From NCBI GenBank assembly GCA_030272155.1, contig CP126200.1, positions 4,836,001-4,900,000 on the forward strand: DNA of 64,000 nt. The letters are read 5' to 3'. This document shows, piece after piece, positions 3,819-63,470 of the stretch; position 1 is the stretch's first letter, and every line of letters starts with the position of its first letter. This DNA comes from Tetradesmus obliquus (lineage: Eukaryota > Chlorophyta > Chlorophyceae > Sphaeropleales > Scenedesmaceae). A program made the position numbers and the translations under genes. Below the pieces are notes generated by a model, which ran no database searches, was not told the origin of the DNA, and saw only the letters and a list, made by a program, of their open reading frames with translations.

Positions 3819-4183
3819 GCAAGCGGCAAGGCACTGCCTGGCAGAAGATCAAACCGTGCTGCTATAACTGCAGCTGAGCAGCCTGAGCAATGCTAATGAC
3901 ATTGATGCAGGCTGTTCTGCTGCTATCGCCATACCATGCACTCTCCACACGTCGTGCACAAGGGTATGCATTGCCACTGCACATGCGCCGTGCTGCATTG
4001 AGCTGAACCGACCACTAACATCTACAGGACCCTGGCTGTGCAGGTAAACTCGACAGCAGGTACACCTACTACCGCATCAAAATCAACCTCAACGAAACCT
4101 TCAGTGACATTTCCAGGCCGGACCCCAATGAGCCCCACCTGATGCTCTCCCAGGGACCTGTCGTCCTTGAGAGCAAAGCCTGA
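3490..4183 (+). CDS. Small secreted protein, two exons, 103 aa
   Basis: Exon 1 is 3490-3645 (ATG to donor CCT|GTGAGA) and exon 2 is 4028-4183 (after CTACAG, ending TGA). Each is 156 nt, so the junction is phase 0. The protein starts with a basic residue and a hydrophobic run (MAPRGLCTLLCVAFLIG), a typical cleavable signal peptide ending near TSA. The mature part contains RYTYYRIKINLNETFSDIS, with one N-glycosylation sequon (NET), and ends GPVVLESKA. I do not recognise the family. It sits downstream of the dirigent-like gene on the same strand and could be a diverged relative, but I see no clear similarity. Its intron holds a (CAG)23 run. The stop is 3 bases from the stop of the convergent neighbour. 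Confidence 0.55.
3749..3817 (+). repeat. (CAG)23 microsatellite in intron
   Basis: A near-perfect run of about 23 CAG triplets sits in the intron of the small secreted-protein gene. It reads as poly-Gln, poly-Ser or poly-Ala by frame and lies outside the spliced coding sequence. Confidence 0.95.
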
Positions 4184-4186
4184 CAC

Positions 4187-4447
4187 TTAGTGAATGCTCC
4201 AAGTTTGGCCGGGGTGCTCTTGCTGTTCTGCTGCTGTTGTCCTCTGACGCACAGGCTGCACAATGCCCAAGGCAGCAGAGATCCGCGAATGACAGTCTTG
4301 GAGAACTGTTTTGTTAGTTCCTAGCTCTTCCTGCAGCGTTTCAATCTGCCCTCGCAAGCTCTGGTTGTCAGACAACAGCTGCTCATATGCCTGTTTACTG
4401 ACAAACAGCGCGCCCTGAAACTCAACTGTCTCCACACGGGCGGACAT
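4187..4447 (-). CDS. Short coiled-coil protein, 86 aa, single exon
   Basis: An ATG at 4447 opens an 86-codon frame on the minus strand ending at 4187. The central part (SKQAYEQLLSDNQSLRGQIE followed by TLQEELGTNKTVLQDCHSRI) has regular Leu/Ile heptad spacing and charged residues, so it should form a coiled coil of about 45 residues. The tail is polar. No family is recognised; short coiled-coil proteins of this size occur as prefoldin-like or complex-subunit proteins, but there is no motif for either. It is convergent with the small secreted-protein gene, with only 3 bases between stops, so the 3' UTRs must overlap. Composition is coding-like and it lacks the triplet-repeat bias of shadow ORFs. 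Confidence 0.5.
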   Translation of the reverse strand: MSARVETVEFQGALFVSKQAYEQLLSDNQSLRGQIETLQEELGTNKTVLQDCHSRISAALGIVQPVRQRTTAAEQQEHPGQTWSIH

Positions 4448-6559: not shown

Positions 6560-6717
6560 TCACACAGACACGCGCGCCACCACAGGGCTTGCCCTACTAA
6601 TGCCAAATGGCATGCGCGCAATGCCGTCACTGCTCCATGCATTGGCTGCTGGGTCGTAGCTCCACACCTCTCGTACACCAGTCTGTGTGAACGCCGACTC
6701 CTGCTCATCCTCCTCTC

Positions 6718-6752
<35 letters not shown>

Positions 6753-35678: not shown

Positions 35679-37217
35679 AGCTTGAGCGTGCTTACAAAGC
35701 CAGGGGCTGTGTCCTGCAAGCGGCACGCTGCTTGATTGCATACGGCATGCCCAAGAGCGTATGTAAAAGCCTCACAACTGTAGTGCGGCCTTTCCTTTGT
35801 ACCCTACCTGTGGCTACTGATGTTGTTGTCTGTTTGTGTCGTCCCAGGTCACCGAGATGGTGGAGGGAGAGATTGCCACTGCAACGAAGGAGGTGCCGCG
35901 ATTTGCAGCAGGCGGCGCAGCAGCCAGGGCCGGCGGCAACAGCAGCAGCAGCAGCGCAGCAGCGCGCATTGCCAGCAGGCGGGGAGCGGCAGCGCGCTAC
36001 AGCCGCTTTGAAGCAGAGGTGGGCAGGGAGGGCAGGCGGCCTACCTGATGCATGCGTGCAGTGCATGACCATGGGCTATATTGCAGGTGGCTTGCAGGTG
36101 GCTTGCTGGATGTGTGGCTTACTTACAGCCGCTTTGAAGCAGAGGTGGGCAGGTGCCTTACTTGCTGCATGTTACCCGGATGTCCTTGCAGCGCATTTGG
36201 AGATCAGTGGTTTAGTGCATTGCGACGTGCTGGGTTTGGGAAGCAAGCAGAGCATGCTAGCTTGGTACGGCCGGCGCTGGCGGAGGTGGGCAGGGAGGGC
36301 AGATGGCTTACTTGCTGCATGCGTGCGGTGCATGACCATTGGCTGTATTGCAGGTGGCTTGCAGGTGGCTTGCTGAATGTGTGGTGCCGCGTTTGCTTGT
36401 AGGGTAGGGTAAGCGCATTGGCTGTGTTGTGCGACTATGTCTGCTGCATTTATCAAACAAATGCAGCATGGTGTGTCTGCTGTATGGTTTAATTGCTGCA
36501 TGGATGTCGGCTGCGTTATGTTTTTGCTCTTGATCGCTGCGCACAGGTCGCCGCCATGCAGCGCGACAGCAGTACCTATTGCGACGTCGCCAGCTGAGCA
36601 TATATGTTTCTTGTGCCACTTGAGTGTGTCTGCTGAAGGTACTGTACTTTTCATCGCTTTGCGCAGGTCGCGGCCATGCAGCGCAACAGCAGCACCTGCT
36701 GCTAGGACATGACTGTTTCTTGTGTCGCAAAAATGCGTGTGCTGCTCTTGTTGCACTTTTCATCGCTTTGCGCAGGTCGCGGCCATGCAGCGCGACAGCA
36801 GCACCTACTGCGATGAGCCGGAGGATGCTGCGGACTATGCGGCCTGGCGCAGCAGCAGCGCCAGCATGCAGCAGCGCCAGCCGGAGATAGACAAGATCAT
36901 GGCGGGTGGGCGGTGTGTTGTTATAGTTTCCACTGTTTGTTTCCTGTTTGTTTCCACTATGTGTTTCCTTTTTGTTGAGCGCCAGCCGGAGATAGACAAG
37001 ATCATGGCAGGTGGGAAATTGTTGGTGTTGGTATTTGTACTTATGCTGATTCGCTGCTTGGGTCGCAGCATGGAGGTCTCTTGCAGGAGCTTCTGCTGTG
37101 GCTATTACTGCATGCGGCAACGTGTGTGTGTGCGCGTGCGGCTGTCCCCGCAGCCTGCACGGCGGCCTTGTGCGTATGTCTGTGAGCGCTGCGGGCACTT
37201 ATGAAGATATAAACCAG

Positions 37218-40436: not shown

Positions 40437-40823
40437 GCAACAACGCGGTGGGCAGCACCACTGCGGCTACTGGCCACCTCGCTGCTGCTTGTGCTGCTGC
40501 TGCTGCTGCTGCTGCTGGCCGCTGCATCACTGCTGCTGCTGCTGCTGCTGTCCGGCATTTCAGCCGTTGATAGCGGCACCCCAGGATAGCGTGCAGCCAG
40601 CAGCGCCCCGACTGCTGCCACCTGCTGCCTGCTGTAGATCTGCCGCGGGAAGTTGAACCGCAGGGAGTCCCTGCTGTGGCGCATCTGCATTGCTAGGCGA
40701 GCCAGATCGGCAGCACACGCGGCAGCAACAGCATCTTCAAACGTCATTCGCACCACCCTTTTAGATTCCGCCACCGGAACGTGTGCTGCCCATCCTGCTT
40801 TGCGCGGCATGCAGTAACGGGTC

Positions 40824-40867
<44 letters not shown>

Positions 40868-41414
40868 TCCTGCTGACTGCCTGCACGGTACACAGCTGCT
40901 TGCTTTGGTGCTGCCTCAGCTGCTGCAGCTGCAGCAGCTGCTACCGCAGCCCTTGCTGCAGCCTCAGCAGCTTGCAGAGAGGCATCTTCCTCTGTGGGTG
41001 CTGCCGGCTCAAACCACCCCGGCCGCTCAAACTGCAGCAGCTGCCGCATGTCTGCCACCTGCTGCGCTGTGTAGCTGCTGTCTGGCAGGTTGCCAGCAGT
41101 GCCGCCTAGGGCCAGCTGTGCCAGGCCAGCAGCACACGCAGCATGCAGGCGGCTGCTGTAACTCCTGGCAAGGGCTCTGTCGCCGGCATGTGAGATTAAC
41201 ATCCTGTATCTGCCAGCCACGCAATCCACATTCCTGCCATAAGGAGGCCCCTCGACACTGCCGCTGAAGTACGCTGCTGCTTCCGTGACTGCTGCTGCAG
41301 CTGCTGCTGCTGCCTTCCCCACGGCTGCATCGGCTTCTGTTTGCAGCTGAGCCCGCTGCTTCACACGATCTGCACTCCTCACCAACTCAGCTGCAGGCAG
41401 TGCACTTGGCACTG

Positions 41415-41447
<33 letters not shown>

Positions 41448-43047
41448 TGTCCCCCTGACAAGCAGCCAACACCAGCAAAGGCCGCTTCAGCTGCAGCAGC
41501 GCCGCCATGTCTGCCACCTGCTGCTGCGTGTAGATGCTCGCAGGGAGGTTGAGTGCTGCTGCTGCCTCTGCAGTGAAGCCCCATATGGCTAGGCGTGCCA
41601 GGTCAGCTGCACAAGCCGCCTGCACCCTGTCCTGTGCATATTTCACATACTTCCTACCTTGCATGATGCTGCCCTGAAGAGCCATCCACCACCCAGATTT
41701 CACCCTGCCAACCAGACTGCCCCGGGGCGGCTGCTGCTGGCCGTTGAACAGCGCTGCTTCTGCCGGAGCAGCGGCAGCCGCCGCCTCTGCTGCAGCTGCT
41801 ATTGCTGCGTCTGCGGTATGCTCTACTGCACGTGCAGCTGCTGCAGCTGACTCATCACCTGCCACCTTGCCCACTCGCCATGCCTGCAGCAGGTTCTGCC
41901 AAACTGTCAGCTGTTGCTGCGTGTAAGTGGCTGCAGGGAGGTTGAGGCTGCCCACTAGAGCACCATACAGTGCAAGGCGTGCCAGGTCAGCAGCGCAGCA
42001 TGCCTCAAGGCGGCTGCTGAAGTGCCACGACAGCACCTTGCCTGCATGCACCAGCTTCCACCTCCAAAGCACGGAACCGTTTGCAGCCTGCTACTCCACA
42101 AAGTTGCCTCCGGCAAGGATGGCCTCGAGTTGCTGTGCTGCTGCCGGTGCTGCTAGCCGCACAGATGCCGCTGCATCTGCAGCGGCGCGCACTGCGGCCC
42201 GTTCTGCTGCCGCTCGAGCTGCCAACTCTGCTGCTGTCGCTGCGTCCCATGCCGGCAGACGCAAGCCAGGCTGCTTCTGCTGCATCAGCGCTGCCCATGC
42301 CGCAACCTGCTGCTGCTGGTACAATTCAGGTGGGAAGTTCAGCTGCTGTGACGTCACAACTGAGCTGTGCAGGGCAAGCCGTGAGAGGTCAGCAGCGCAG
42401 GCTGCTTCATCCGCAGTTCTAAACGATTTGCTGTAGATGCCGACCTCAGTTTTTGCCTGAGCTGTCCAGTTGCCCTTGCTCCTGCTTGCGTTCTTGGGTT
42501 TCAGGCTGCCCGCATCCAGTTGCGTTATGATGGAAGGAGCGGCAATCCTTGCTGCCTCCACTGCCTTTGACACAGCTGTTTTTGCAGCAGCTTTGATGCT
42601 GGGCGCGGCCATATGTTGACAGTGGTGCGAAGCTTTTGAACCTGCAGGTCGCCAAAAGCTTCCTATGTCCGTCATTGATTTCAGGTGAGGAAAGAGGAGG
42701 CATCAAGCAGCAGCACTGGAAGTACAGGTACTGGTAGCAGCAGCAGCAGACTAGCTGCCTGCAGCACCTCGCATGTCCCAGGGTGACGTGCCAGCTGCTT
42801 AAGCACTCCTGCTTGTCACTTACTTGTGTTTAAGCGCCGCGGTAACGGTCGCCGATTGTGTTTGTGGACAGCACCCGGAACAATCAGCTGTGGAACATTC
42901 AGCTCATGACAGTGCACTGGGCAAGAGCTTTTTGCATGTTCCGAAAAAGGATTGACAACGTGAGCTGCTCGACATGTTGAGCATGGTATGCTGAAGTCTT
43001 GTGAATTGCCCCGACCTTATTACATGCTAGGGTTCTGTTCGGGCTGA
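39875..43047 (-). repeat. Inverted duplication, left arm (~3.17 kb)
   Basis: This arm matches 58930-61990 in inverted orientation. Similarity covers the AP2-like gene, ~80 bases directly upstream (the CAGCAGACTAGCTGCC word pairs with GGCAGCTAGTCTGCTG), and a further ~210 bases ending at TACATGCTAGGGTTCTGTTC near 43021-43047. The 3' boundary is just after the stop region (GTGAGGGCAGCAAGGTTGG). Some stretches over 180 bases are identical in translation. Confidence 0.9.
39884..42612 (-). pseudogene. AP2-like repeat gene, broken copy
   Basis: Aligned with the intact copy at 59381-61969, this copy starts at ATG 42612 (MAAPSIKAAAKTAV) and keeps all five AP2-like repeats, but has two lesions. An in-frame TAG at 42093-42091 follows GGNFVE where the intact copy reads on through FVERAAAGG. 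A frameshift lies near 40795-40815, just after the poly-Gln run, so the last repeat (MTFEDAVAAACAADLARLAM) is in another frame. Poly-Ser and poly-Gln runs also differ in length. No splice sites bracket either lesion convincingly, so I call it a pseudogene, though a one-base assembly error could explain the frameshift but not the stop. Confidence 0.7.
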
Positions 43048-43889: not shown

Positions 43890-45374
43890 TCAACTGGTGT
43901 TGGGCCCATCTGCGCTAACTACCACTGCTGCTGCTGCTGCTGCTGCTGTCTTCATTTGCTGCCGCTGCTGTTTCCGCCGGCGCTGCTCCCTTGGACTGAG
44001 CAGCATCCACTTCAGGTCAGCAGCAGCCTGCTGCTGCACCTGCTTGGAAGCCCAGCTGCACTGCTGGCTGCCATTGCTGCTGCTGCTGCTGCTGCCACCA
44101 TCACTCGTGCTGCTGCTGCTGCTGCTGCTGGCCTGCAGCTGCTCCACTGGCTCCACAAGCCCGTTGTAGTACCTCGACAGGATCAGCGCTGCTGCAAATG
44201 CATCCCGCCCAATCGCATGCTGCTGCTTCTGCAGCTCATGCCGCTGCTGCTTCGACATCTGCTGCCGCGGCTGCCCTGTGCTTGCTGCTGCTTGCTCTGC
44301 CTCTATCTCCATCTGCGTTCTAACATCATATGCAGCAGCACCAGCCATCACTGCACGAGCCTGCTGAGAGCTCTTCACCTCATTCACAAGCAGCACTGGC
44401 AGCTCCAGTGGCGCCGCCAGGTCAGCTAGGGTTTGCGCAAACCGCCGGATGAAGTCATTAATCCAGCGGCCATCACCAGGCACAGCTGCTGCTGCTGACG
44501 TGCCCTTTGCAGCAGCTGCTGCTGCTGCAGCAGGTCTGCTGCTGGTAGCTCTGGTGGCTGCTGCGGCTGCAGCAGCTGATGCTGCTGGGGTGTCTGGCTG
44601 TTCAGTGAAGACTGGCAGCCCTATGACAAAGCCATCGCAGCCCTCCTGCAAGCCCACATGCAGTACAACGGCTGCTGTACGCGCAAGCGGCAGAACATTG
44701 TTGGCGATGGCTGCACTTTCGCTTGTGCTGCGACCGGAAGGCCCTTGCTGCCGCCGCTGCTGCTGCTGGACAGGACTGCTGCTGCTGTTGTTACTATCAT
44801 TGCTGCTGGTGTCCTGCTGCCGGTGCAGCGTGAGCAGCGGGACGTTGTGGCTGCTGCGCCTCACTGCTAAGCCTACACGATGCACACCAACGTCAACACC
44901 CATGGCTTGAAATAGCAGCTGGGGCTGTTGTTGCTGACTGTTGTTGTTGTCTGCTGCATTTCCTGGGGCGTCATCCTCGCTACTGAACGATCCATATGTA
45001 ACTTTCTTCAGGAGCCGCTGCCGCCGCTGCTGTGCTGTTGCTGAGCTGGTCAGCGTACTGCTGGAAGGCCTCAGCCCAGCTGCTACTGCTGCTGCTGGGG
45101 GTTGCTGTTTGGCTGGGGGTTTTGGCGGAGGCTTTACCCATTCAGGACGGGCCCATTTCAAGCGTGGGTCTTCCGTTTGCTGCTGCTTTATTTTTGGCTG
45201 CCCTGGCTGGGACAGCTGCTGCTGATGCTCATGCTGATGCTCCTGCTGCTGTTGTTGACTAACATCACCAGTCGACCTCGCTGTTACTGAAGGAGGCTGT
45301 TGACGACTAGTGCTCTTGCTGTGGTGCCTGGGTGTGCTTGTCAGGCCTTGGCATGGGCAGCCAGGTAGGTACAT
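43890..45374 (-). CDS. RuvX/YqgF-family RNase H-fold protein, probably organellar, 494 aa
   Basis: Single-exon frame from ATG 45374. The N-terminal ~150 residues are Ser/Gln/Pro-rich and fit a long transit peptide plus linker. The YqgF core follows: MGVDVGVHRVGLAVR (first catalytic Asp near residue 161), GFVIGLPVF, WINDFIRRFAQTLADLA, LPVLLVNEVKSSQQA (Glu in place of the DExxS motif) and GRDAFAAALILSRYY (last acidic residue). All three acidic positions of the RuvX active site appear kept. Bacterial RuvX/YqgF is a Holliday-junction resolvase-like nuclease also implicated in rRNA 5'-end processing; plant homologues are organellar. The core is stretched by poly-Gln, Asn/Ser and Ala insertions and a Ser/Gln-rich tail. 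Head-to-head with argininosuccinate lyase, 407 bases apart. Confidence 0.8.
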   Translation of the reverse strand: MYLPGCPCQGLTSTPRHHSKSTSRQQPPSVTARSTGDVSQQQQQEHQHEHQQQLSQPGQPKIKQQQTEDPRLKWARPEWVKPPPKPPAKQQPPAAAVAAGLRPSSSTLTSSATAQQRRQRLLKKVTYGSFSSEDDAPGNAADNNNSQQQQPQLLFQAMGVDVGVHRVGLAVRRSSHNVPLLTLHRQQDTSSNDSNNSSSSPVQQQQRRQQGPSGRSTSESAAIANNVLPLARTAAVVLHVGLQEGCDGFVIGLPVFTEQPDTPAASAAAAAAATRATSSRPAAAAAAAAKGTSAAAAVPGDGRWINDFIRRFAQTLADLAAPLELPVLLVNEVKSSQQARAVMAGAAAYDVRTQMEIEAEQAAASTGQPRQQMSKQQRHELQKQQHAIGRDAFAAALILSRYYNGLVEPVEQLQASSSSSSSTSDGGSSSSSSNGSQQCSWASKQVQQQAAADLKWMLLSPREQRRRKQQRQQMKTAAAAAAAVVVSADGPNTS

Positions 45375-45781
45375 GGTCAGTTAAGCATCCACCCGCCCAG
45401 CAGCCAGAAAAAAGGTTTTTGTTGTAAATACTGTTCTCCTTGAGTGTTTCAAAGATGATTGTATCACTGCTAGCTGCGGCAGAGTTCACAGCTCAACGTC
45501 ACTCACAACCACAGCAACCCTGGTAACCCGAGACAGCAACACTCCCAGAAGCAACTGTTATACATGCAAATAGTTTGCTGTCGCTCAGATCATTCATCTG
45601 CGACTGGGTCGAGTTTTGGGGCTTACAAGCCACGTGCTGACTTGCTTTGGCTGTAACGAGGTTCTTACGGCCTTGCCAGCAACCTCTGCTCTGTAAAACG
45701 TCATTCAGAGGAAAAAGCTTGTTCCTGCCGCAGAAGTGGCTGTTGTGTGCTTGGCCATCCCGTCCTGCACCTGCATATCGA
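45375..45781. promoter_or_regulatory. Divergent promoter region, RuvX-like / argininosuccinate lyase
   Basis: 407 bases between the two start codons. It is relatively AT-rich at 45405-45470 and lacks triplet repeats. No specific element is identified. Confidence 0.45.
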
Positions 45782-46515
45782 ATGGCTACCGGCTTTTCCC
45801 TGCAGCGGGGTGCTGCAAACAGCGGAGTAGCACGAGCATCGTGCTCTCGTCAGCCACACGTGCGTAGCGCACTGCTGCTGCCAAGACAAGTGCTGCTGCC
45901 AGACACACTGCTAGGCGCACACTCTCACTTTCTGCGTCCATCACCGCTGTTGCAGTGCCCAAAGGTTAACATCAACAACAGCAAAACTGTTCGGCTGTCG
46001 CCCATGGTGAGTGGCCTGCCTGGTTCTGTTCAAGGCCTGAAACACTGCACCCATCAGCATGGCACAGTGGGGTTGTGCTGTCAACTTATCAGCTGATCTG
46101 GGTCTGCAGCTGCTCATTGAGGCAGCAGCAACTGCGTACAGCGGAAGAAAACTCCTGGAATAACTTCAGGGTGCAGTCTCGGGGAGCTTGGAGTCAAGCC
46201 AGCATTGCAGAATGCAAACCCTAGCTAGCAGCTGCAGGTGCCCAGCGACGGCCACATGCCAATGTCGCATCCCTTGGGCCCCTTCAATGATTGCAATTGC
46301 TTTCATCATACATGTTATAGCTATGGAAGGTATTGGCAGGCTGTTTCAGACCACAAGTAGTCAGCAGCTGCATGCGCAGCTTACCGTGTGATCCTGCATG
46401 CACACTGCCCCACACAGCAGCAGCTGGCCGTGGGGTTTCGAACAGCATACATCATCACCAAAGCACTTGCAACATCCACACACAGTTCTCCAGTGACCCT
46501 GCAACCCCCTGAGCA

Positions 46516-46548
<33 letters not shown>

Positions 46549-49500
46549 AGGCTGCCGCCGCCACAGAAAAAAGCGCCCCCGCTGAGGAGGCCACGCCCAA
46601 GCTGTGGGGCGGCCGATTCACCGGCAAGGTTGACCCGCTGATGGAGAAGTTCAACGCGAGCCTGCCCCTGGACAAGCGCATGTGGGCAGAGGACATCCGG
46701 GTGCGTTGTATGTGTAGTGTGGCCTGTGTGTAGTGTTTGGCAGCAGCAGCAGCAGCAGGCGGCGCAGGTGTTGATAGAGGAATTGCAGATGACAGGCAAG
46801 CGTGCGAGCCAAGTGGGCCGTAAACAGCATATCTGACTAGCTTAAGGCCAACACAAGGTAGGCAGGTGTGGCAAGGTTGACCCGTTCATGGAGAAGTTCA
46901 ACGCCAGCCTGCCCCTGGACAAGCGCATGTGGGCCGAGGACATCCGGGCGCGTAGCTGCAGCAAGTTAAGCTGAATGTTTCAGCAGCTGCTGCTGCCAGC
47001 TGAATGTTTCAGCAGCTGCTGGCCTGGCAGCAGCAGCAGCAGCCTCTGGCTTGTTTGTGGGTGCAGGGCAGCAGCAACGTGTGCGCAGAGGTCATCCGGG
47101 GGCTTTGATCAGCATGTAGCTGCATGTTTGGGCGGCCGCTTCACGGCAAGGTTGACCCGCTGATGGAGAAGTTCAACGCGAGCCTGCCCCTGGGCAAGCG
47201 CATGTGGGCAGAGGACATCCGAGTGCGTGGGCTGCAGCACACCACAGAGCATGTGCATGTCTGAGCAGTTGCTTGATGTGCGGCAGCAGCAGCAGCAGGT
47301 GTGTGCTTGAGGCATGCGGGAGGAGGATGCTATGGCGTATCACTTTCTCAACGTTGCCTGTGCCTCATCATGTTACCCATCAAGCCGTAGCATCAACGCC
47401 ATTGGCCCCGCGCCCCAATGGAGCGCCAACAAGAAGGAGCACTACATCATCATGTTTGCTTGCCTGCGTGTTTGTGTTGATGCCTGCAGGGCAGCCAGGC
47501 GTATGCCAAGGCTCTGGTGAAAGCAGGCATCCTCACCCAGGAGGAGGCGGAGACCATCGTGGGCGGGCTGGATAAGGTGCGGAGTGTGTTGCAATTCCTG
47601 TGTTGGCCTGCCCTGCATTTTTGCATTACTGACAGCAGCACTACATGCTGACTGCGTGTCCAGCGTCACCTGTGATGGCTTTAATGACTGAATGAAATAC
47701 AACCCACATGCGTGCATGTTTTATCGCGGCAAGACTGGTTTCTATCACAACTTCAGAGTACAGGGACCAAGCAGCAGCATGGCAACTGTCATATGTCACA
47801 CCCCTTCGCCACTGTTATGTCTGTCAAATTGGGCGTGCTTGGCGGCTCATGTTGGCGGTATGCTGCAACATTTGCACCCTGTGGATGTAGGCACGTATAG
47901 CCAAGGCGGGCAATTAATACATCCTCGCGGCAGGCAAAAAAAACATATCACTGTGCTGCTGTGCTGCCGCGCAGGTTGCGTCTGAGTGGGCGTCCGGCAC
48001 GTTTGTGGTCAAGACGGGCGACGAGGACATCCACATGGAAAACAACTTGCACTATCACTGCTAAGCATGCTGGCTGTTTTCACTAAATATCCTGCCTTGC
48101 TGCTGCACAGGTTGCGTCCGAGTGGGCGTCCGGCACGTTTGTGGTCAAGGCGGGTGATGAGGACATCCACACCAAATAAAACTTCACTACTGCAGCAACT
48201 TTACTACTGCAGCAACATGATGACTCATTGATTGAATTCACTGCCTTCTTGCCGCACAGGTTGCGTCCGAGTGGGCCTCCGGCACGTTTGTGGTCAAGGC
48301 GGGTGACGAGGACATCCACACCGCCAATGAGCGGCGGCTGACTGAGCTGGTGGGGGCGGTGGGCGGCAAGCTGCACACGGGGCGCAGCAGGAACGACCAG
48401 GTGCGCGTTGTTTTGTATTGTTTGTAGCAGCAGTGCGCTTGGGTCTGCATCGTGGCAGTTTCAGACAATGCGCATGTCTTGCCAGCAACGCTGGATACAA
48501 CAGCTGTCTTGTCGGGCTGTGTTTGTTATGTGAGCTGGTTTGGGCAATGTGTGGCAAGCTGCACATGGAACCGACTGCAGAAGAAGACCCCGTTGTGTGA
48601 AGTAGCAGGGCGCTTTGCTCTGCACTGAAGCCGATATGGGGCTGGGCAGCTGTTGCCTGATCCTGCTGTGCCTGCTCTGTTGCTGCTGCAGGTCGCCACA
48701 GACACGCGGCTGTGGCTGTTTGCTGCGTTGACTGAGGTGCGGGGCAGCCTGCAGGAGCTCATCAGCGTGGCCACAAACAGGGCAGAGGCGGAGGCGGACG
48801 TGCTCATGCCAGGTGAGATGGTGTGACTGCTGGCTGCCGCTGTGCCTGTATGTGTTATGACGGTGTGGTAAGGCAGCCTGCAGGAGCTAATCAGCGTGGC
48901 CACAACCAGGGCAGAGGCTGAGGCGGACGTGCGTATGCCAGGTGGGTCGGGATTTAGGTGGGGTGGCAGGGTTGCTGGCTGCTGCGGCGCTGCTTGATGT
49001 GGAAGGCTGGTTGCAGCTGCAGAGTAACAGCAGCAGTGTGCTTCATGCGATTAACCACAAGTTTGCACACATATTGGGTGGCGGCGGACATGCTCATGCC
49101 AGGTGTGCGGGGTGGCTGGTCACGTGCTGCGGCGCTTATTGTTGATGAAGGGCCGGCGCAGTATCATCAGTGATGGTGTGCAAAGATACGCACTGCTCTA
49201 GGTTGCAGCATCCCGCAGGCCCAGCACTGCGGTCACCACCAAACACTGCGCTGCCACTGTGCTGAACACCCCAACGACTCCGCCACAGTACAGACCTCCA
49301 ACCTCTGCATGTGTCCTGTCACCAATACATGCCTGTCCTGCAGGCTTCACGCACCTGCAGCAGGCGCAGACGGTGCGCTGGGGCCACTGGCTAATGAGCC
49401 ACGCCTCAGCCTGGCAGCGCGGCGACATGCGGCAGGCCCAACATCGTGCTCGCCACCCTAACACACAATAACCACAATTCGCAGGCCACTGTCTGGCCTT

Positions 49501-52322
49501 TCAAATGCCCCTCAGCTGACCTTTTTGTGTGTCTACTGCTGCTTGTTTCAAACGCCGTTGTGCAGGCTTCACGCACCTGCAGCAGGCGCAGACGGTGCGC
49601 TGGGGCCACTGGCTCATGAGCCACGCTTCAGCCTGGCAGCGCGACGACATGCGGCTGCGCGACCTGCTGCCGCGCGTGGCCACGCTGCCGCTGGGCAGTG
49701 GCGCGCTTGCAGGAAATCCTTTTCTGGTGGACCGGCAGTTCATTGCGCGGGAGCTGGGCATGGTGGGAGGCGTGTGCCCCAACAGCATGGACGCTGTCAG
49801 CGACCGTGAGTCCAACCGTTTGACTGATTGCTTTGTTGATTGTTGCGTGAACGAGCATACAGCTCTGCGAGGCGGGTGTAGCAGCAGCACGAGTAGTGCT
49901 TGGATGTGAATGTGCTGTGGGTTCTCCGCAGCGCCAGCATGGGCGGTGGTGCGCTTGCAGGAAACCCTTTTTTGGTGGACCGACAGTTCATTCACAGGTG
50001 CTGGGCATGGTGGGCGGGGTGTGCCCCAACAGCATGGACGCCGTCAGCGACCGTGAGTTTGTTGGGTGGTTTTATCTGCTGAGATCAGCATTTGGTTGCT
50101 TGTGGCATCAGTTAGTGCCAGCAGTGCTCGGGTGTGTGTACAGCAGCAGCTTTGTGGAACATTGCTGTTGTGACCAGCTAGCTAGCCTGCTGTGCATGCT
50201 GCTGGCCTCCTGAGTAGCAATGCTTCCTGTCTCCTTGCAAGATGCTGCGCGCGCCTTGTGGCCTTTGTCACTTCAGCACAAGTTGTGTGCAACGCAACAC
50301 AGCCAACTTGCTGATCATGCCTTGCGCTACCATCCTCTGCTCATTCTTCTCGCCCCCATCTTCTGTTCATTCTCCTGCAGGCGACTTGGTGGCGGAGAGC
50401 CTCTTCTTTGCTGCGCTGCAATAACCAGTTATCAGTTCACACCTCCTTGCCCTTGACACTCCTGCAAGCGTCCTCTGCTTGATGCTGCCGCAGAAACAAC
50501 CTTGAAGACGCAAGTCGCCTGCCGCATCTGGGGTCCTTGTTGTCATAGTGTTCGTAATTCAGTGCACCGTTGTTGCGGTGCAAGCAAGGTGATGTCTTTT
50601 TCAGGCCTCCTGCGAACAATTCCTGCTACATGCTGTGCCGTCCTGCAGGCGACTTTGTGGCGGAGAGCCTCTTCTTTGCTGCACTGCACCTGGTGCACCT
50701 GTCTCGCTGGGCTGAGGACTTGATCATCTACAGCAGTGGACTCTTTGGCTTCGTGCAGTGCAGCGATGCATATGCAACAGGCAGCAGCCTCATGCCACAG
50801 AAGAAGAACCCGGACGCGCTGGAGCTCATTAGGTGGGGTTTGTCATAACATGTTATTTAGGGAGTTTGAATTGCGGGGTGTTTGGCCTGACAGCTGGCAT
50901 AGGCTGCATGTAGCAGTGGCTGCTGATGCAGCGCGTCTCTGCTACAGCTGCTGGGTGCACCTGCTGTGCTTTTGTGCTGCTGATTTCAAACCTTATTGGG
51001 GTGACTGGAGCCACACATGTTGACGATTGCTGCTAAACAAGGTTGCTTTCTTGACTGTGTTGTTTTTGCGGCTTGCTCTCCTGCAGGGGCAAGGCGGGCA
51101 AGCTGCAGGGCAACTTGGCTGGCGTGATGGCTGTGCTCAAGGGCACGCCCACCACCTACAACAAGGACTTCCAGGAGGCATGGGAGCTCATGTTTGACAG
51201 CGTGGACGCGGCGCACGACTGCATCCGCATCGCCACTGGGGTGCTGTCGACGCTGAGCATCAACCCGGACAGGATGATGAAGGTGCGCTTGATTCGATTT
51301 CAAATGGTGTTATAACATATGTGGCCAAACAAAGCTTGCCAGGTGGCGTGCTGTCCATGCTGAGCATCAGCCTTGACAGGATGATGAAGGTGGGTGGGGC
51401 GCTGTGTCCTGCGGATGTCTGTACAGCATACAGTTGTGAACTTCTGTAGAGACTTTCTGTGTTGTGAAACTCACACCCGCTGTCTGCCCTGCAAGACCTG
51501 TTGGCGGCATGATAGACACAGCAAATGCTTACACCCTGCTGGTGTGCTGCCTGTTCCCATCCCTCTCCATGGCAGGGCCTGTCTGCAGACATGCTGGCCA
51601 CCGACCTTGCCGAGTACCTGGTGCGCAAGGGTGTGTGCTTCAGGAAATCGAACTCCTCACATCTTGCAACACTTCTCATGTCCGCAGGGCCTGTCGGCTG
51701 ACATGCTGGCCACTGATCTTGCTGAGTACCTGGTGCGCAAGGGCGTGCCCTTCCGGGAGACGCACCACGTCAGCGGCGCTGCCGTCAAGATGGCGGAGGA
51801 CACTGGCGTGCCGCTGAGCAGCCTCAGCGTGGCGCAGCTGCAGAGCATCCACCCGCTGTTTGAAGATGACGTCGTGAAGGTGCGTGTGTGGGGTATCAGG
51901 CAGTGCTGCTAGTAGTGGCGTACAAGAATCATAGACGCCGGATACTTGGTGTTCTTCAGGTTCTCTTGTGGTTTGTTTGGCGGCTTTGGCCTAGGAGACG
52001 GCCTAGGGCTTTGGCTGTTTCATAGGCAGGGCAACATGCAGATTGGACAGTTGCAGGTGCCGCTGAGCAGCCTCAGCATGGCGCAGCTGCAGAGCATCCA
52101 CCCGCTGTTTGGTGACGACGTGGTCAAGGTGCGTCGTTATGTGTGCGCGCAATTGTTTTGTTGTATGTGCATGGGAAAGCGCCGGCTTTTGGCTCTGTTT
52201 GCTATGCTGTGTTTAGCCTTGACCCGCTTTTCAACGACGATGTGGTCAAGGTGCGTGGGTGGATTGTCAGCAGTGCCAATAAAGGTTATGTTTGGGATGC
52301 TGACGTTTCCGTTGTTGCATGG

Positions 52323-52360
<38 letters not shown>

Positions 52361-52605
52361 AGGTGTGGAATTCAGTGCCCCTACTGACGCACGTGACCCG
52401 TTGCTGACGTATCCTGGTGCATTGTCTGCTGCTGCTGCTGCTGCTGCTGCTTCTGCTTCTGCTGCTGCTGCTGCTGCAGGTGTGGGACTTCAGTGCCTCT
52501 GCTGACGCGCGTGACACTGAGGGCGGCGCCAGCAAGCGCTCGCTGCTGGAGCAGGTGGCCAAGATGCGCGCCTACCTGGCAGCAGAGCAGGTGGCGCAGC
52601 AGTGA
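45782..52605 (+). CDS. ARG7: Argininosuccinate lyase, plastid-targeted, 553 aa, 10 exons
   Basis: Catalyses the last step of arginine synthesis: argininosuccinate to arginine plus fumarate. Exons 45782-46006, 46551-46700, 47490-47576, 48260-48400, 48692-48812, 49566-49805, 50649-50832, 51087-51282, 51688-51879 and 52480-52605 join with matching phases (1662 nt). Exon 1 is a transit peptide ([20 protein letters not shown]). Family landmarks follow: [24 protein letters not shown] (near 193), [15 protein letters not shown], the fumarase/ASL signature [12 protein letters not shown] (near 365, mobile Ser loop), [16 protein letters not shown] and [18 protein letters not shown]. Fumarases and adenylosuccinate lyases share only the signature, so the assignment is safe. 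Start chosen as the ATG giving a transit peptide. The gene is spread over 6.8 kb because its introns are filled with echoes of its own exons. ARG7 is the Chlamydomonas name for this enzyme. Confidence 0.95.
46870..46947 (+). repeat. ASL exon 2 tail echo 1
   Basis: Copy of the last 78 bases of exon 2 (GGCAAGGTTGACCCG to GAGGACATCCGG) with few substitutions. Its donor is changed from GTGCGT to GCGCGT, so it is probably dead. Confidence 0.95.
47128..47222 (+). repeat. ASL exon 2 tail echo 2
   Basis: Copy of most of exon 2 from the GGCGGCCG word onward, with a one-base deletion (TTCACGGC for TTCACCGGC) that shifts frame. The donor GTGCGT is intact. A shorter fragment (GCAGAGGTCATCCGG) lies at about 47083-47097. 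Confidence 0.95.
47363..47440 (+). repeat. Dispersed ~70-bp repeat, copy 2
   Basis: About 90% identical by eye to copy 1 at 39428-39505, in the same orientation, inside ASL intron 2. Confidence 0.8.
47975..48174 (+). repeat. ASL exon 4 head echoes (two) with acceptors
   Basis: The first ~63 bases of exon 4 (GTTGCGTCCGAGTGGGC to GACATCCACACC, real copy at 48260) occur earlier at 47975-48036 and 48111-48174. Each directly follows an acceptor-like GCGCAG or GCACAG. The first ends ACATGGAAAAC, and the second runs into AAATAA, a stop. Confidence 0.95.
48872..49102 (+). repeat. ASL exon 5 tail echoes with donors
   Basis: The end of exon 5 (GGCAGCCTGCAGGAGCT to CTCATGCCAG|GTGAGA) recurs at 48872-48941 (CGTATGCCAG|GTGGGT) and as a short form at 49081-49102 (GCGGACATGCTCATGCCAG|GT). 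Confidence 0.95.
49344..49440 (+). repeat. ASL exon 6 head echo with acceptor
   Basis: The first ~97 bases of exon 6 (GCTTCACGCACCTGCAGCAG onward) are copied 222 bases upstream of the real exon, after a CTGCAG acceptor. Identity is very high until GGCGACATGCGGCAGG. Confidence 0.95.
49941..50052 (+). repeat. ASL exon 6 tail echo with donor
   Basis: The last ~110 bases of exon 6 (GCGCTTGCAGGAAA to AGCGACC|GTGAGT) are copied in intron 6. A small indel (CATTCACAGGTGCTGGG for CATTGCGCGGGAGCTGGG) changes frame. The donor is intact. Confidence 0.95.
50381..50422 (+). repeat. ASL exon 7 head echo with acceptor
   Basis: The first 42 bases of exon 7 (GCGACTTTGTGGCGGAGAGC to GCTGCGCTGCA) are copied 268 bases upstream after TCCTGCAG and run into ATAACC, a stop. 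Confidence 0.95.
51340..51389 (+). repeat. ASL exon 8 tail echo with donor
   Basis: A copy of GGGGTGCTGTCGACGCTGAG to AGGATGATGAAG|GT with several substitutions, 58 bases after the real donor. Confidence 0.9.
51576..51643 (+). repeat. ASL exon 9 head echo with acceptor
   Basis: A copy of the start of exon 9 (GGCCTGTCTGCAGACATGCT to CTGGTGCGCAAGGG) lies 112 bases upstream of the real exon and is preceded by a GGCAG acceptor. Confidence 0.95.
52057..52250 (+). repeat. ASL exon 9 tail echoes (two) with donors
   Basis: 52057-52128 repeats GTGCCGCTGAGCAGCCTCAG to GTGGTCAAG|GTGCGT with few changes. 52219-52250 repeats only the last ~30 bases (GACCCGCTTTTCAACGACGA then TGTGGTCAAG|GTGCGT). Confidence 0.95.
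52363..52400 (+). repeat. ASL exon 10 head echo with CTG tract and acceptor
   Basis: The (CTG)n-CTGCAG acceptor and the first 38 bases of exon 10 (GTGTGGGACTTCAGTGCC..) are copied 117 bases upstream, with GAATTCAG for GACTTCAG. Confidence 0.95.
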
Positions 52606-52633
52606 TGCAACCCAATGCATGTGCATGCCAGCA

Positions 52634-52880
52634 AATCGGCTGGCGCAGCAGTGATGCAACCCTGCTGCTGGAGCAGGTAGCGGAGGTGCGCGGCTACGTG
52701 GCGGCAGAGCAGGTGGCGCAGCAGTGATGCAGGAAACGTAATCCATGTGCATGCAAGCGCGCTTGATCATCAAGCACCATGATGGTGCATGCCTACCTGG
52801 CAGCAGAGCAGGCGGCGCAGCAGTGATGTTCAGGTGCTTCTGGCTGCGCTTACCTAGAGCAGCTGGCGCAGCAGTGGTGA
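52634..52880 (+). repeat. ASL terminal-exon tail echoes (about four)
   Basis: After the true stop (TGA 52603-52605) the terminal segment is repeated. A short copy lies at about 52640-52656 (CTGGCGCAGCAGTGATG), then 52662-52730 (from CTGCTGGAGCAGGT to GCGCAGCAGTGATGC), 52786-52828, and a diverged one at about 52844-52880. Each includes the stop codon region, so they would be 3' UTR. Confidence 0.9.
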
Positions 52881-54323: not shown

Positions 54324-55460
54324 ATGATCCTGTCCCCGCCTGTTTCTGGAGGCATGTTATGGTATGGCCTGGTCCAGCCTCGCCTTGCTGCCAAGCCCGT
54401 GCCTGTGCAGCCGGCTGCTGCACCAGCGCCCAGGAAGCTGCTGTCAGAAATCTGTGTGAGTTGCCAGCTGCTGGGCCCCTCTTGCAACAATCATCAGCAG
54501 CTCTCACTCAAACTAGGATGTTGTTCACCAAACTTGCATCCTGCGTACGGCTGCTGTTGCATTGAGCAAGTTGCCCATGGCGGTTGATCTAGTTCAACCG
54601 CCAAGTGTGTGAGTCACTGGCAGATGACCTGGCAGCCCAGCAACAGCTTCCCAAGCTTCCCATGATACCACTCAAGTCACCCAGCAAGCCTCATTGAATT
54701 GGCATCATGTTATACATCAACACGTTGCTACCTGCCACTTGTTCCTGCAAGTGCACCTGACTAGCAGCACATTCCTGCCCAACACTTCCACGCAGCAATT
54801 GCCCACCAATTGGCTCAATCCCTGCTGCTGCTGCCTGCAGGTGAGCTACCCTTACTGCAAGCTCGAAAACTGCGAGCCCATCGGCCCCACTGCAGTGCAG
54901 GCCAGCTTCCCAGTGGAGCAGGCAGTGCGTGGTGACAAGGGCCACAGCCACTGCAGCACCAGCGAGCTGGCTCGACACATGGCCAACGCAGGTGCGTGCA
55001 TGCTTGTGCAACTGCACCATCATCAGCAAGTTAGAAAGATTATTCAGCAGCAGCCACTGCAGCACCAGCAAGCTGGCACGACACATGGCCAACGCAGGTG
55101 CGGCACATGACTCTGTTGAACCTGCGGTTTGTGCAGCATGTCTGTGCAGCCACTGCAGCACCAGCGAGCTGGCACGCCACACGGCCAACGCCAGTGCAGC
55201 ACATCTGGCACCTGTGCTCTGTGCAGCATGATCATCAATGCATGAAGGTATCTTAATTACAGCAGCCGCAGCACCAGCGAGCTGGCACGCCACATGGCCA
55301 ACACAGCTGCGTTTTGAAAAAAGCAAGTCTGGGCTAACTGCAGCAGCCGCACACTAAAGGCATCAGCTGCTCAGCATGTTTGTAAGACAGGCGTGCCAGC
55401 AAGGTAGCACTGCTACCTTTCATGGGGCTTGTGACAAGCAACTACCACAACACCTTTTCA

Positions 55461-55494
<34 letters not shown>

Positions 55495-55585
55495 TGGCTC
55501 CACTGCAGGCTCCGCCGCATGCGCATTGGCCAACCCCAAGCCCGGCCGCTACTTCTACCAACAGCACTTCCTGCCTCCTCACCCG

Positions 55586-55640
<55 letters not shown>

Positions 55641-56483
55641 GCCGCAACTGCAGGCTCCGCCGCATGTGCACTGGCCAACCCAAAGCCGGGCCGCTACTTC
55701 TACCAGCCAGTGGCAGGCACCTTCACCAGCCAACTGCTAGCCACCTACTCCATTGCAGCCATTGCAGCCGGCGGCAGCGCATCACCCGGTGCTCTGCTCA
55801 GCCAGCCAGCCAATACAGTCAGCGCACATGTTGCAAGCTTCAAGCGAGGATTGGCAGTTGCTGACTCTGTTGCACACGGCTGCCACCTGCGCGCCGAATA
55901 TGTTGTGAAGCCCTACTGGTATGTGGCAGCACACATCTGCCCTGTCTCGAGCAGCCTGAGCAGTGTTGCTAGCTGGAGCTTCAACAGCCTCAGCAGCAGC
56001 GGCGGCAGCTACAGCAGCAGCTTTGATACCATGGATGAGGCAACTGCAGGCTGCTACCAGGCCACACCCGCTACAAAGCTGCTGCATGCAAGCAGCGGCA
56101 GCAGCGGCGCGGCTGCCGCGCTGTGGCAGGGAGCGAGGTTCCCCGGGCACTATGACTTGGGGGAGCATTATGCAGCACCTGGGGTGATGGCAGTTGCCTC
56201 GGAGCTCACTGCTCTGGTGCATGGCGGCGACTTTTACATGCTGCATTGTGACTTCAGGGTGCGGCGGCTGGTGCCAGCGCATGTGCCGTGTGTGGTGTCA
56301 GTGCAGCGGCTGGCGTGTGGCGGGCAGCAGCAGCAGCAGCAGCAGCATGCTGGCAGCAGCTGCGCGCTGCTGCAGGCGTGGGTGCGGGAGATGCCTGGGG
56401 CGATTACATACAGAGCTACATTGAGGGAGAAGGGCAGGGTGGCGCGCAAGCCTGCAGTGGAGCTGCTGTACACCGTAGTGTGA
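54324..56483 (+). CDS. Unrecognised protein, 370 aa, three exons
   Basis: Exons 54324-54455 (donor TGT|GTGAGT), 54841-54991 (GCAG|GTGCGT) and 55654-56483 join with phases 0 and 1, 1113 nt in total. I do not recognise the family. Visible features: an N-terminal stretch with a Pro/Ala-rich linker (PVPVQPAAAPAPRKLL), a Cys-containing segment (CKLENCEPIGPTAVQASFPV), HCSTSELARHMAN, then ANPKPGRYFYQPVAGTFTSQ and a long Ser/Gly/Ala region with SFDTMDEATAGCYQATP and GARFPGHYDLGEHY, ending VARKPAVELLYTVV. There is no clear signal peptide or membrane helix. Exon 3's acceptor is duplicated (55509) and exon 2's tail is repeated three times in the intron, so other splice forms are conceivable; the model given is the only one I found that stays in frame. 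Confidence 0.55.
55051..55306 (+). repeat. Three echoes of exon 2 tail of the 54324-56483 gene
   Basis: The exon end CACTGCAGCACCAGCGAGCT to GCCAACGCAG|GTGCGT recurs at 55051-55097 (donor GTGCGG), 55148-55194 (donor lost, CAGTGCAG) and 55263-55306 (CACAGCTGCG). Decay of the donor increases with distance from the real exon. Confidence 0.9.
55509..55562 (+). repeat. Echo of exon 3 head of the 54324-56483 gene, with acceptor
   Basis: GCTCCGCCGCATGCGCATTG to CCGGCCGCTACTTCTACCA after ACTGCAG copies the first ~54 bases of exon 3 (real start 55654). The two are separated by a (CTG)n tract. Both are phase 1 at the acceptor, so the upstream acceptor could be used but reads into other sequence. Confidence 0.9.
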
Positions 56484-58929: not shown

Positions 58930-61401
58930 GTCAGCCCGAACAGAACCCTAGCATGTACTGAAGTCGGCGTCGTTGAGCAGACTTCCTCATACCATGCCAG
59001 CATCTTGAGCAGCTCACGAACTGTCAATATTTCCTGGCTTTACGCACGTAGTCCATCTCTGGCCCAGTGCACTGTAATGAGCTGAATGCTCCGGGTGCTG
59101 TCGGGTGTTTCTTGCCCAGGCAAACGGACACAATTGGCGGCCGGTACCGCGGCGCTGAAACACAAGTAAGTGAAAACAAGTAGCGCTTAATTTTAAATAG
59201 CTGGCACATCACCGTAGGACATGCGAGCTGCTACTGGCAGCTAGTCTGCTGCTGCTGCTGCTACCAGTATTTCCAGTGCTGCTGCTTGATGCCTCCTCTT
59301 TGCTCAACTAAACTAAATGGCTGATATAGAAAGCTTTAATTGCCCTGCAGGCTCAAAAGCTTTGCACTGCTGTCCGACTTATGGCCGCGCCCAGCATCAC
59401 AGCTGCTGCAAAAACAGCTGTGGCAGAGGCAGTGGAGGCAGCAAGGATTGCGGCTCCTTCTACTGTGACGCAGCTGGATGCGGGCAGCCTGAAACCCAAG
59501 GGTACAAGCAGGAACCAGCGCAACTGGACAGCTCAGGCGAAAACTGGGGTTGGCGTTTTCAGCAAGGCGTTTAAAACTGCCGCTGAAGCAGCTTGCGCTG
59601 CTGATCTCTCGCGGCTTGCCCTGCACAGCTCAATTGTGACCTCACAGCAGCTGAACTTCCCACCTGAATTGTACCAGCAGCAGCAGGTTGCGGCATGGGC
59701 AGCGCTGATGCAGCAGAAGCAGCCTGGCTTGCACCTGCCGGCATGGGACGCAGCGACAGCAGCAGAGTTGGCAGCCAGGGCGGCAGCAGAACGAGCCGCA
59801 GTGCGCACCGCTGCAGATGCAGCGGCATCTGTTCGGCTAGCATCACCAGCAGCAGCAGCACAGCTGGAGTCTGGCCACACCGGGGCTTACTTTGTAGAGA
59901 GGGCAGCTGCAGGAGGCGTGGGCGAATGGAGGTGGAAGCTGGTACATAAAGGCAAGGTGCGTTCGTGGCACTTCAGCAGCCGCCTTGAGGCATGCTGCGC
60001 TGCTGACCTGGCACGCCTTGCACTGTATGGTGCTCTAGTGGGCAGCCTCAACCTCCCTGCAGCCACTTACACGCAGCAGCAGCTGACAGTTTGGCAGAAC
60101 CTGCTGCAGGCATGGCGAGTGGGCAAGGTGGCAGGTGATGAGTCAGCTGCAGCAGCTGCACGTGCAGTAGAGCATACCGCAGACGCAGCAATAGCAGCTG
60201 CAGCAGAGGCGGCGGCTGCCGCTGCTCCGGCAGAAGCAGCGCTGTTCAACGGCCAGCAGCAGCCGCCCCGGGGCAGTCTGGTTGGCAGGGTGAAATCTGG
60301 GTGGTGGATGGCTCTTCAGGGCAGCATCATGCAAGGTAGGAAGTATGTGAAATATGCACAGGACGGGGTGCAGGCGGCTTGTGCAGCTGACCTGGCACGC
60401 CTAGCCATATGGGGCTTCACTGCAGAGGCAGCAGCAGCACTCAACTTCCCTGCGAGCATCTACACGCAGCAGCAGGTGGCAGACATGGCGGCGCTGCTGC
60501 AGCTGAAGCGGCCTGTGCTGGAGTTGGCAGCATGTCAGGGGGACAGCAGCAGCAGCAGCAGCGCAGTGGCTAGCGCAGTGCCTGCTGCCGCCTTATCAAG
60601 GAGTGCAGATCGCGTGAACCGCCGGGCTGGGCTGCGAACAGCAGCAGACAGAGCTGTGGCAGAGGCAGCAGCAGCAGCTGCAGCAGCAGCCACGGAAGCA
60701 GCAGCATACTTCAGCGACAATGTTGAGGGGCCGCCTTATGGCAAGAATGTGGAGTGCGTTGCTGGCAGATACAGGTTGTCATTGACCCATGCAGGCGACA
60801 GAGCCCTTGCCAGGGGTTACAGCAGCCGCCTGCATGCTGCATGTGCTGCTGACCTGGCACAGCTGGCCCTAGGCGGCACTGCTGGCAACCTGCCAGACAA
60901 CAGCTACACAGCGCAGCAGGTGGCAGACATGCGGCAGCTGCTGCAGTTTGAGCGGCCGGGGTGGTTTGAGCCGGCAGCAGCACGCAACAGCACACCATCA
61001 GGAGCAAATCCAAGGCTTCAGGCTATGGAGGCTGCAGCAAGGGATCTGGTGGCAGCTGCTGCAGCTGCAGCAGCTGAGGCAGCACCAGAGCAAGCAGCTG
61101 CATATCGTGCAGCGAGCCAGCAGCAGCAGCAGCAGCGACCTGCCTGCTGCTTGCAGGGCAAATCACGCTGGTTAGCACGCGTCAAGGTCGCGGACAGTAG
61201 CAGTGTGTTCCAGATGACGTTTGAAGATGCTGTTGCTGCTGCATGTGCTGCCGATCTGGCTCGCTTAGCAATGCGGATGCGCCATGGTAGGCACTCACTG
61301 CGGTTCAACTTCCCGCGGCAAATCTACAGCAGGCAGCAAGTGGTAGCAGTCGGGGCGCTGCTGGCTGCACGCCACCCTGGGGTGCAGCTAGCTGAGGTGG
61401 T

Positions 61402-62689: not shown

Positions 62690-63031
62690 GCAGCAGCAGC
62701 AGGCTGTGGTGCCGCCATTCGCAGCAGCAGCAGCAGCAGCAGCAGCAGGCTGTGGTGCCTGCCATTCGCAGCAGCGGCAGCAGCAGGCTGTGGTGCCGCC
62801 ATTCGCAGCAGCAGCAGGCTGTGGTGCCTGCCGTTCACAGCAACAGCAGCAACAGGCTGTGGTGCCTGCCGTTCGCAGCAGCAGCGGCAACAGGCTGTGG
62901 TGCCTGCCGTTCGCATCAGCAGCAGCAACAGGCTGTGGTGCCTCCATTCGCAGCAGCAGCAGCAGCAGCAACAGGGTGTGGTGCCTGCCATTCGCAGCAG
63001 CAGCAGCAACAGGCTGTGGTGCCTGCCATTC

Positions 63032-63071
<40 letters not shown>

Positions 63072-63384
63072 GCTGTGGTGCCTGCCATTCGCAGCAGCAG
63101 CAGCAACAGGCTGTGGTGCCTGCCATTCGCAGCAGCAGCAGCAGCAGCAACAGGCTGTGGTGCCTGCCATTCGCAGCAGCAGCAGCAGCAGCAACAGGCT
63201 GTGGTGCCTGCCGTTCGCAGCAGCAGCAGCAACAGGCTGTGGTGCCTGCCATTCGCAGCAGCAGCAGCAGCAGCAGCAACAGGCTGTGGTGCCTGCCATT
63301 CGCAGCAGCAGCAGCAGCAACAGACTGTGGTGCCTGCCATTCGCAGCAGCAGCAGCAGCAACAGGCTGTGGTGCCTGCCATTCA

Positions 63385-63417
<33 letters not shown>

Positions 63418-63436
63418 GCTGGTGGTGCCGCTGATC

Positions 63437-63470
<34 letters not shown>
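62690..63470. repeat. Minisatellite, ~20 copies of a 33-50-bp unit
   Basis: Head-to-tail units of (CAG)n-CAACAGGCTGTGGTGCCTGC-CATTCG with n from 3 to about 12. The constant part is strongly conserved and variation is mostly in CAG number and CCATTCG/CCGTTCG. Three plus frames and three minus frames remain open across it, reading as RLWCLPF-poly-Ala, QAVVPAIR-poly-Ser, GCGACHS-poly-Gln and their complements. With no flanking conserved coding, I call it a repeat, not a gene. Confidence 0.9.

Follow-up and report, generated by a model that had tools for sequence, protein, structure and literature searches.

Partial copies of exon edges in the introns of an argininosuccinate lyase gene and across the genome of Tetradesmus obliquus

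Introduction

What leaves partial copies of a gene's exons in its own introns, and what becomes of them there? This question is raised by a stretch of 64,000 nucleotides from the green alga Tetradesmus obliquus (assembly GCA_030272155.1, contig CP126200.1, positions 4,836,001 to 4,900,000 of the forward strand), called the window below and numbered from its first letter, which holds an argininosuccinate lyase (ASL) gene whose exon edges recur in worn form in the neighbouring introns. These copies, here termed echoes, were described in an initial annotation made from the letters alone. It held that copies of exon starts lie upstream of the real exon and copies of exon ends downstream (the side rule), that repeated tandem duplication of boundary-crossing segments was their source, and that no description was known of a gene with nearly every boundary so affected.

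Here, we confirm that the echoes in ASL are real and report that they reflect a general but uneven habit of this genome, of which ASL offers a rich case. Recurrent local tandem duplication together with selection on the protein, followed by intron-like decay, very probably gave rise to them. The type of mutation is known, the density and order of the copies are unusual, and their persistence is unexplained. Judged by sequence comparison and simulation, plain decay does not account for how well the echoes have lasted in comparison with the intron sequence flanking them, a point which the initial annotation had missed.

Echoes in the ASL gene

The rebuilt ASL coding sequence is 1662 nt long (553 codons and the stop) and free of internal stops, and its introns are all GT-AG. 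Its protein matches the Pfam families Lyase_1 (PF00206, 4.2e-104) and ASL_C2 (PF14698, 2.2e-26).

45782–52605, + strand: ASL gene, 10 exons; GT-AG introns, open frame, PF00206 and PF14698
46551–46700 with 45782–46006, 47490–47576, 48260–48400 and 48692–48812, + strand: ASL exons 1–5 (exon 1 is 45782–46006)
49566–49805, 50649–50832, 51087–51282, 51688–51879 and 52480–52605, + strand: ASL exons 6–10

The 10 exons were compared with the 11 non-coding segments of the gene (9 introns and 2 flanks) on both strands, with 60 dinucleotide shuffles each. This exon search gave 18 matches, none of which was on the reverse strand. As the rule requires, 16 of them fall on the expected side, in the intron next to the exon or beyond the stop, and these alignments extend to within 2 nt of the exon edge. 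The other two, exon 4 against the 3' flank (4.1 standard deviations, SD) and exon 9 against intron 2 (5.7 SD, gappy), are taken for noise. Echoes touch 11 of the 18 splice boundaries as well as the stop. A self-comparison of the whole window, limited to pairs less than 3 kb apart, gave 59 direct pairs and 1 inverted.

46870–46953, + strand: echo of exon 2 end, donor lost (GC); exon search, self-comparison
47130–47228, + strand: echo of exon 2 end with donor; exon search, self-comparison
47956–48035, + strand: echo of exon 4 start with acceptor; exon search, self-comparison
48092–48173, + strand: echo of exon 4 start with acceptor; exon search, self-comparison
48531–48589, + strand: echo of exon 4 end, GT at 48592; exon search, 7.6 SD
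48836–48944, + strand: echo of exon 5 end with donor; exon search, self-comparison
49077–49118, + strand: short echo of exon 5 end with donor; exon search, 4.1 SD
49339–49433, + strand: echo of exon 6 start with acceptor, 97% identical; exon search, self-comparison
49940–50058, + strand: echo of exon 6 end with donor; exon search, self-comparison
50373–50420, + strand: echo of exon 7 start with acceptor; exon search, self-comparison
51338–51392, + strand: echo of exon 8 end with donor; exon search, self-comparison
51564–51653, + strand: echo of exon 9 start with acceptor; exon search, self-comparison
52045–52134, + strand: echo of exon 9 end with donor, AG at inner edge; exon search, self-comparison
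52215–52276, + strand: older echo of exon 9 end with donor; self-comparison, failed shuffle-controlled search
52355–52397, + strand: echo of exon 10 start with acceptor and CTG tract; exon search
52656–52731, + strand: echo of exon 10 end with stop; exon search, self-comparison
52786–52828, + strand: echo of exon 10 end with stop; exon search, self-comparison
52846–52875, + strand: short possible echo of exon 10 end; weak, failed shuffle-controlled search

Each of the 15 places listed in the initial annotation shows a copy of the exon named for it (the one near 52634 in one comparison only), and both the common orientation and the side rule hold for the matches as counted above. The list was incomplete, as it lacked the exon 4 end echo, in which the last two exon bases are changed and the GT follows the copy. 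Only weak or short copies are present at 52219, 52634 and 52846, and none passed the shuffle-controlled search individually; the copy at 49081 passed narrowly. Splice signals were said to be kept throughout, and among 14 aligned echoes this is so for AG in 6 of 6 acceptor copies and for GT in 7 of 8 donor copies; the copy at 46870 reads GCGCGT where the exon has GTGCGT.

In the exon 9 echo at 52045–52134, an AG right at the inner edge and an undamaged donor delimit a 72-nt segment (52057–52128) in phase with its neighbours; from its sequence, this segment is a candidate cassette exon. CTG/CAG triplet runs are frequent at 44500–45400 and in the ASL introns, and occur also as acceptor tracts.

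Recurrence across the genome

The genome comprises 104.66 Mb in 17 contigs. Besides the window, we took 28 stretches of 10 kb each at set positions, with one or more on every contig (344 kb in all); some analyses used the first 264 kb of this sample, in 27 pieces. Genes were predicted with a purpose-written finder trained on the sample, which finds 10 of 10 ASL exons, 8 of them with both ends exact, and which called some echoes exons. The true ASL exons were substituted for its predictions in later analyses.

Across the 344 kb, 262 direct pairs were found at spacings of 60–1600 bp versus 6 inverted pairs. Close direct pairs are present in 21 of the 29 loci and on 16 of the 17 sampled contigs, and one dinucleotide shuffle of each of the 27 pieces gave 0 pairs. 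In 94 of the 208 direct pairs of the 264-kb sample a non-coding copy is matched with one that covers a splice site or stop of the gene predictions, compared with 37.4 ± 7.7 under a circular-shift null, in which 0 of 500 shifts reached as high a count. The side rule is general too: in the 344 kb, donor echoes lie downstream in 64 cases and upstream in 6, and acceptor echoes upstream in 58 and downstream in 12. That the echoes are a peculiarity of ASL was not borne out.

A rule-conforming echo stands at 76 of 556 predicted splice boundaries, a figure whose precision is uncertain and which is probably a minimum, since outside ASL it rests on gene models that we predicted ourselves and that lack some exons. 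By the same stricter route ASL has 8 of 18, and one gene at sampled locus L028 has 12 of its 28 boundaries echoed. Other echo-bearing genes match known Pfam families, namely EFTUD2 (L021) and glutamate-cysteine ligase (L008). A tandem array at 6300–7300 of locus L013, which has an unreliable gene model, was kept in the 262 direct pairs and in the shift test (94/208); it was left out of the 64:6, 58:12 and 76/556 counts and of the flank-extent, unit-homology, codon, indel (insertion or deletion), profile, echo–echo, island and GC3 (third-position GC) analyses. Further echoes in the window are as follows.

12265–12732, + strand: echoes in another predicted gene
36013–36816, + strand: echoes in another predicted gene
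54944–55705, + strand: echoes at predicted exons downstream of ASL

Proposed origin of the echoes

The tandem origin put forward in the initial annotation agrees with copies that are direct and local and with intron parts that are homologous above chance. For the nearest units, this homology reached p<0.05 in 19 of 38 and p<0.5 in 34 of 38, so that whole-unit homology is found in aggregate and is often undetectable singly. Several of ten aligned units are colinear but worn. A young whole-unit duplication lies in the gene matching EFTUD2 (L021, 2627–2822 and 2764–2959; 196 nt, 100% identical, spacing 137), and boundary-crossing tandem duplications of all ages can be seen in this genome, some still identical and others hard to recognise.

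Under this account, local tandem duplication of units of about 80–450 bp would be frequent. A unit across an acceptor would yield intron end, AG and exon start, followed by intron end, AG and the whole exon, whereas a unit across a donor would yield the whole exon, GT and intron start, followed by exon end, GT and intron start. The protein would be restored only by splicing at the inner, original edge, and the partial copy would survive on the intron side. There it would decay as intron sequence, and some boundaries would re-amplify into short arrays. The side rule and the common orientation would follow because other arrangements of a boundary-crossing tandem duplication would break the message, and no special mechanism is needed for them. 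We infer both this selective filter and the molecular step of duplication, slippage or end joining.

Preservation of exon and intron parts

Exon-derived and intron-derived parts of the echoes differ in how well they are preserved. Among echoes with an exon part at least 88% identical, similarity stops no more than 8 nt into the intron for 25 of 36 donor echoes and 17 of 36 acceptor echoes; the median extent for random donor pairs is 3 nt. Averaged over echoes with 85% identity or more, the identity profile stands near 0.9 within the exon; for 44 donor echoes it is 0.75–0.93 at donor positions +1 to +6 and then falls to 0.3–0.6, and for 40 acceptor echoes it is 0.97 at the AG, dropping over about ten bases. 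When echoes of one boundary were compared with each other and the real exon was excluded (37 comparisons), identity was 0.90 in exon parts and 0.65 in flanks.

Differences between exon and echo fall preferentially on third codon positions, of which 258 in 1850 differ, compared with 203 in 3735 for the first two positions together; the ratio is 2.56 (bootstrap 2.1–3.2; 103 echoes, 344 kb). This ratio is sample-dependent, being 3.06 with 76 alignments from the 264 kb. In ten trimmed ASL alignments the counts are 30 of 224 and 11 of 449. Codons were counted in 101 of the 103 echoes, two being dropped since the real copy showed a stop. These 101 hold 2 in-frame stops versus 6.8 expected, with a third stop in one of the two left out, and 31 indel events in 6097 nt. 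Across the sample GT is retained in 40 of 53 donor echoes and AG in 48 of 50 acceptor echoes. A second splice site at the inner edge of the echoes was not enriched, which speaks against echoes as cassette exons as a class.

Several of these results weigh against duplication followed by neutral decay as a complete account. Neutral simulations were passed through the same detection steps and include the winner's curse in detection, while gene-model errors and the non-independence of echoes within arrays remain. They gave an extent of 8 nt or less in 7–30% of cases (25/36 observed at donors), a median flank score of 33–42 (3.75 observed for donors and 10.25 for acceptors) and a correlation of echo divergence with flank divergence of -0.5 to -0.6 (-0.02 observed). 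The loss of the flanks is too sharp for the decay that is expected, though not strictly required, of neutral duplicates. The third-position ratio of 2.56 compares with 1.5–2.4 in the simulations and, as the ranges overlap, is by itself a modest excess. Furthermore, 19 of the 38 nearest units show no significant homology between their intron parts when taken one by one, 18 of 140 boundary echoes break the side rule (a number in which gene-model errors and true exceptions are unsorted), and 8 of the 29 loci (L004, L005, L006, L010, L020, L024, L026 and L030) lack any close direct pair. Duplication plus decay alone leaves the strong outlasting of the exon-derived over the intron part unexplained.

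Some of the pair-free loci have gene predictions rich in introns, such as L005 with 12 exons. Among six long reading frames taken from L004, L005 and L010, none reached the curated Pfam cut-off for a match.

Alternative explanations

The contrast in preservation may lie in the introns themselves. If these are cryptically simple and gain and lose bases quickly, their parts of an echo would vanish and the exon parts, being of ordinary complexity, would stay without any selection on the echoes; going by sequence features, we regard this as possible though somewhat unlikely. It would account for both the sharp edge and the low echo indel count. The intron parts of the 49 nearest echoes show 0.092 gap events per aligned nt, a count inflated by aligning weakly similar sequence, with 14.6% mismatches and 69% alignable, compared to 0.0063 indels per nt in exon parts. 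In nine hand-picked, well-aligned units of these 49, intron mismatch (112/690) is near twice the difference at first and second positions (p12; 39/537), as neutrality predicts. However, the echo shares the same intron, and the third-position excess is left unexplained. That excess is expected if the echoes are young and exon and echo derive from strongly diverged haplotypes of a hyperdiverse or hybrid population, differing as alleles do, either from the start or once recombination has taken place: exons would be mildly different, mostly at third positions, and introns nearly beyond alignment. A dN/dS-like value of 0.27 (101 echoes; 0.16 for 10 ASL echoes) fits this, as does the small decay of GC3 (0.804 in echoes versus 0.816; strong-to-weak over weak-to-strong changes 1.27, 0.88–1.74). 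Flank divergence is also independent of echo divergence, and haplotype models give a weak correlation. Nevertheless, we find this explanation rather doubtful. Extreme diversity is required, very young whole-unit duplications exist, and the interval of the GC3 ratio nearly reaches the 1.79 expected from equal sharing of changes; in haplotype simulations, moreover, the extent was 8 nt or less in 28–49% of cases versus 69% observed, and echo indels were 0.012–0.015 per nt versus 0.005 observed.

Selection or copy-correction could also preserve echoes born in tandem, for instance in the role of competing splice sites or of partial exons used on occasion, with exon parts decaying several-fold slower than the flanks. 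The identity profile, the comparisons between echoes and the shortage of in-frame stops all point this way, and a slow-echo simulation with f=0.25 gives a third-position ratio of 3.0. Yet the slow-echo simulations produce an extent of 8 nt or less in only 22–33% of cases and a p12–flank correlation of about -0.6, against 69% and -0.02 observed. Some of the indels shift the frame, 13 of 53 donor echoes no longer have their GT (several of these within one array), and second splice sites are not enriched. Copy-correction by simple gene conversion should, by reasoning, not raise third-position differences, and plain conversion from exon to echo is disfavoured on that same ground. We therefore consider retention of this kind improbable. 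The broader proposition, that partial exon copies ending at splice signals persist far beyond the intron DNA duplicated with them, whether by selection or by exchange between diverged alleles, is put forward tentatively and is in our judgement quite doubtful. An assembly artefact is very unlikely, with copies that differ by 0–27%, lie on 16 of 17 sampled contigs and form regular arrays, on contigs that are chromosome-sized (3.1–11.1 Mb). The numbers of copies genome-wide might suggest a mobile element, an introner or mRNA retrocopies, which we hold to be scarcely credible: the copies sit next to the sequence they derive from, in direct orientation, and include splice signals together with intron sequence, no ASL match joins two exons, and a whole-genome search with the DNA of exon 6 gave 3 matches among the best candidates scored, all at the ASL locus.

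Other candidates were set aside. Chance is ruled out by the absence of pairs in shuffles, and an ASL-specific event by the recurrence across the 344-kb sample. A mobile element or paralogue is ruled out for exon 6, the sole exon tried, which among the best candidates matches its own locus only; similar copies in unrelated genes, the mark of an introner or transposable element, were not found for it in the 104.7 Mb. Retrocopies are ruled out by the splice signals and adjoining intron sequence and by the lack of ASL exon–exon junctions, and whole-exon duplication is ruled out for the ASL echoes, which are partial and have one edge. Birth of the copies without intron flanks is disfavoured, given that the side rule needs tandem geometry and that intron parts are homologous in aggregate.

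Comparison with known systems

In tandem exon duplication and mutually exclusive exons, whole exons are copied with both splice sites. The echoes are similar in being exon copies within introns, but they are partial, and the sole one noted with both an acceptor and a donor is the segment at 52057–52128.

Internal gene duplication is ubiquitous, and its segments create or contain introns, according to Gao and Lynch (2009) as cited in PMC3443670 and PMC4974935. The present case is alike in that internal duplication is common within genes and unlike in that it leaves decaying partial exon copies. In the tandem genomic duplication model of Rogers and of Hellsten et al., as outlined in the review PMC3443670, duplication of an exonic AGGT segment yields a new intron. 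Here too intragenic tandem duplication creates extra splice sites, whereas it is existing boundaries that are copied into existing introns; in ASL each of the 16 echoes that follow the rule sits within an intron already present or beyond the stop. The closest case found is the potato RdRp gene, where one tandem duplication across an intron–exon boundary gave a new intron (PMC4974935). That was one event, compared with many boundaries in many genes, donors and acceptors, in T. obliquus, in which no new intron is shown. A boundary-crossing duplication has been published as a single case, while a search of titles and abstract openings in an open-access library turned up no genome-wide account of boundary echoes, which is not proof of absence, nor were such echoes found in the sections covered of the Haematococcus genome paper (PMC7617258).

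Echoes bear on the lengthening of introns, on the origin and silencing of decoy splice sites, and on the raw material for alternative exons. The mismatch between the decay of exon and intron parts poses a testable question, namely whether partial exon copies in introns are neutral. Caution is needed in annotation, as our gene finder called some of the ASL echoes exons. If the echoes do persist, introns in this genome would be largely recycled exon edges, and if they persist by selection they might, for instance, compete as splice sites and so set the levels of isoforms or transcripts.

Other repeats in the window and sample

Short high-identity islands modelled as wholly non-coding were also present. 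Twelve were inspected by eye, of which about six looked like exon or echo edges missed by the gene finder and two or three like plain arrays.

L008 3229, L012 752, L013 7495, L014 3336, L015 7925 and L018 7034: missed exon or echo edges, by eye
L031 1286, L013 7715 and perhaps L023 7858: plain arrays, by eye

Within the window, 62818–63455 is a non-coding, many-copy tandem array with spacings of 76–562 bp and copies 78–93% alike. Direct repeats of 64–83% at spacings of 384–1685 bp occupy 40598–42425 and 59588–61363, several of them inside predicted exons; from their sequence, both regions look like repeat-domain proteins. The predicted proteins of several sampled loci are rich in glutamine and alanine. 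At locus L019, positions 1–6039 consist of about 6 kb of satellite-like tandem arrays, whose units measure around 275 and 340 bp and are 85–97% alike.

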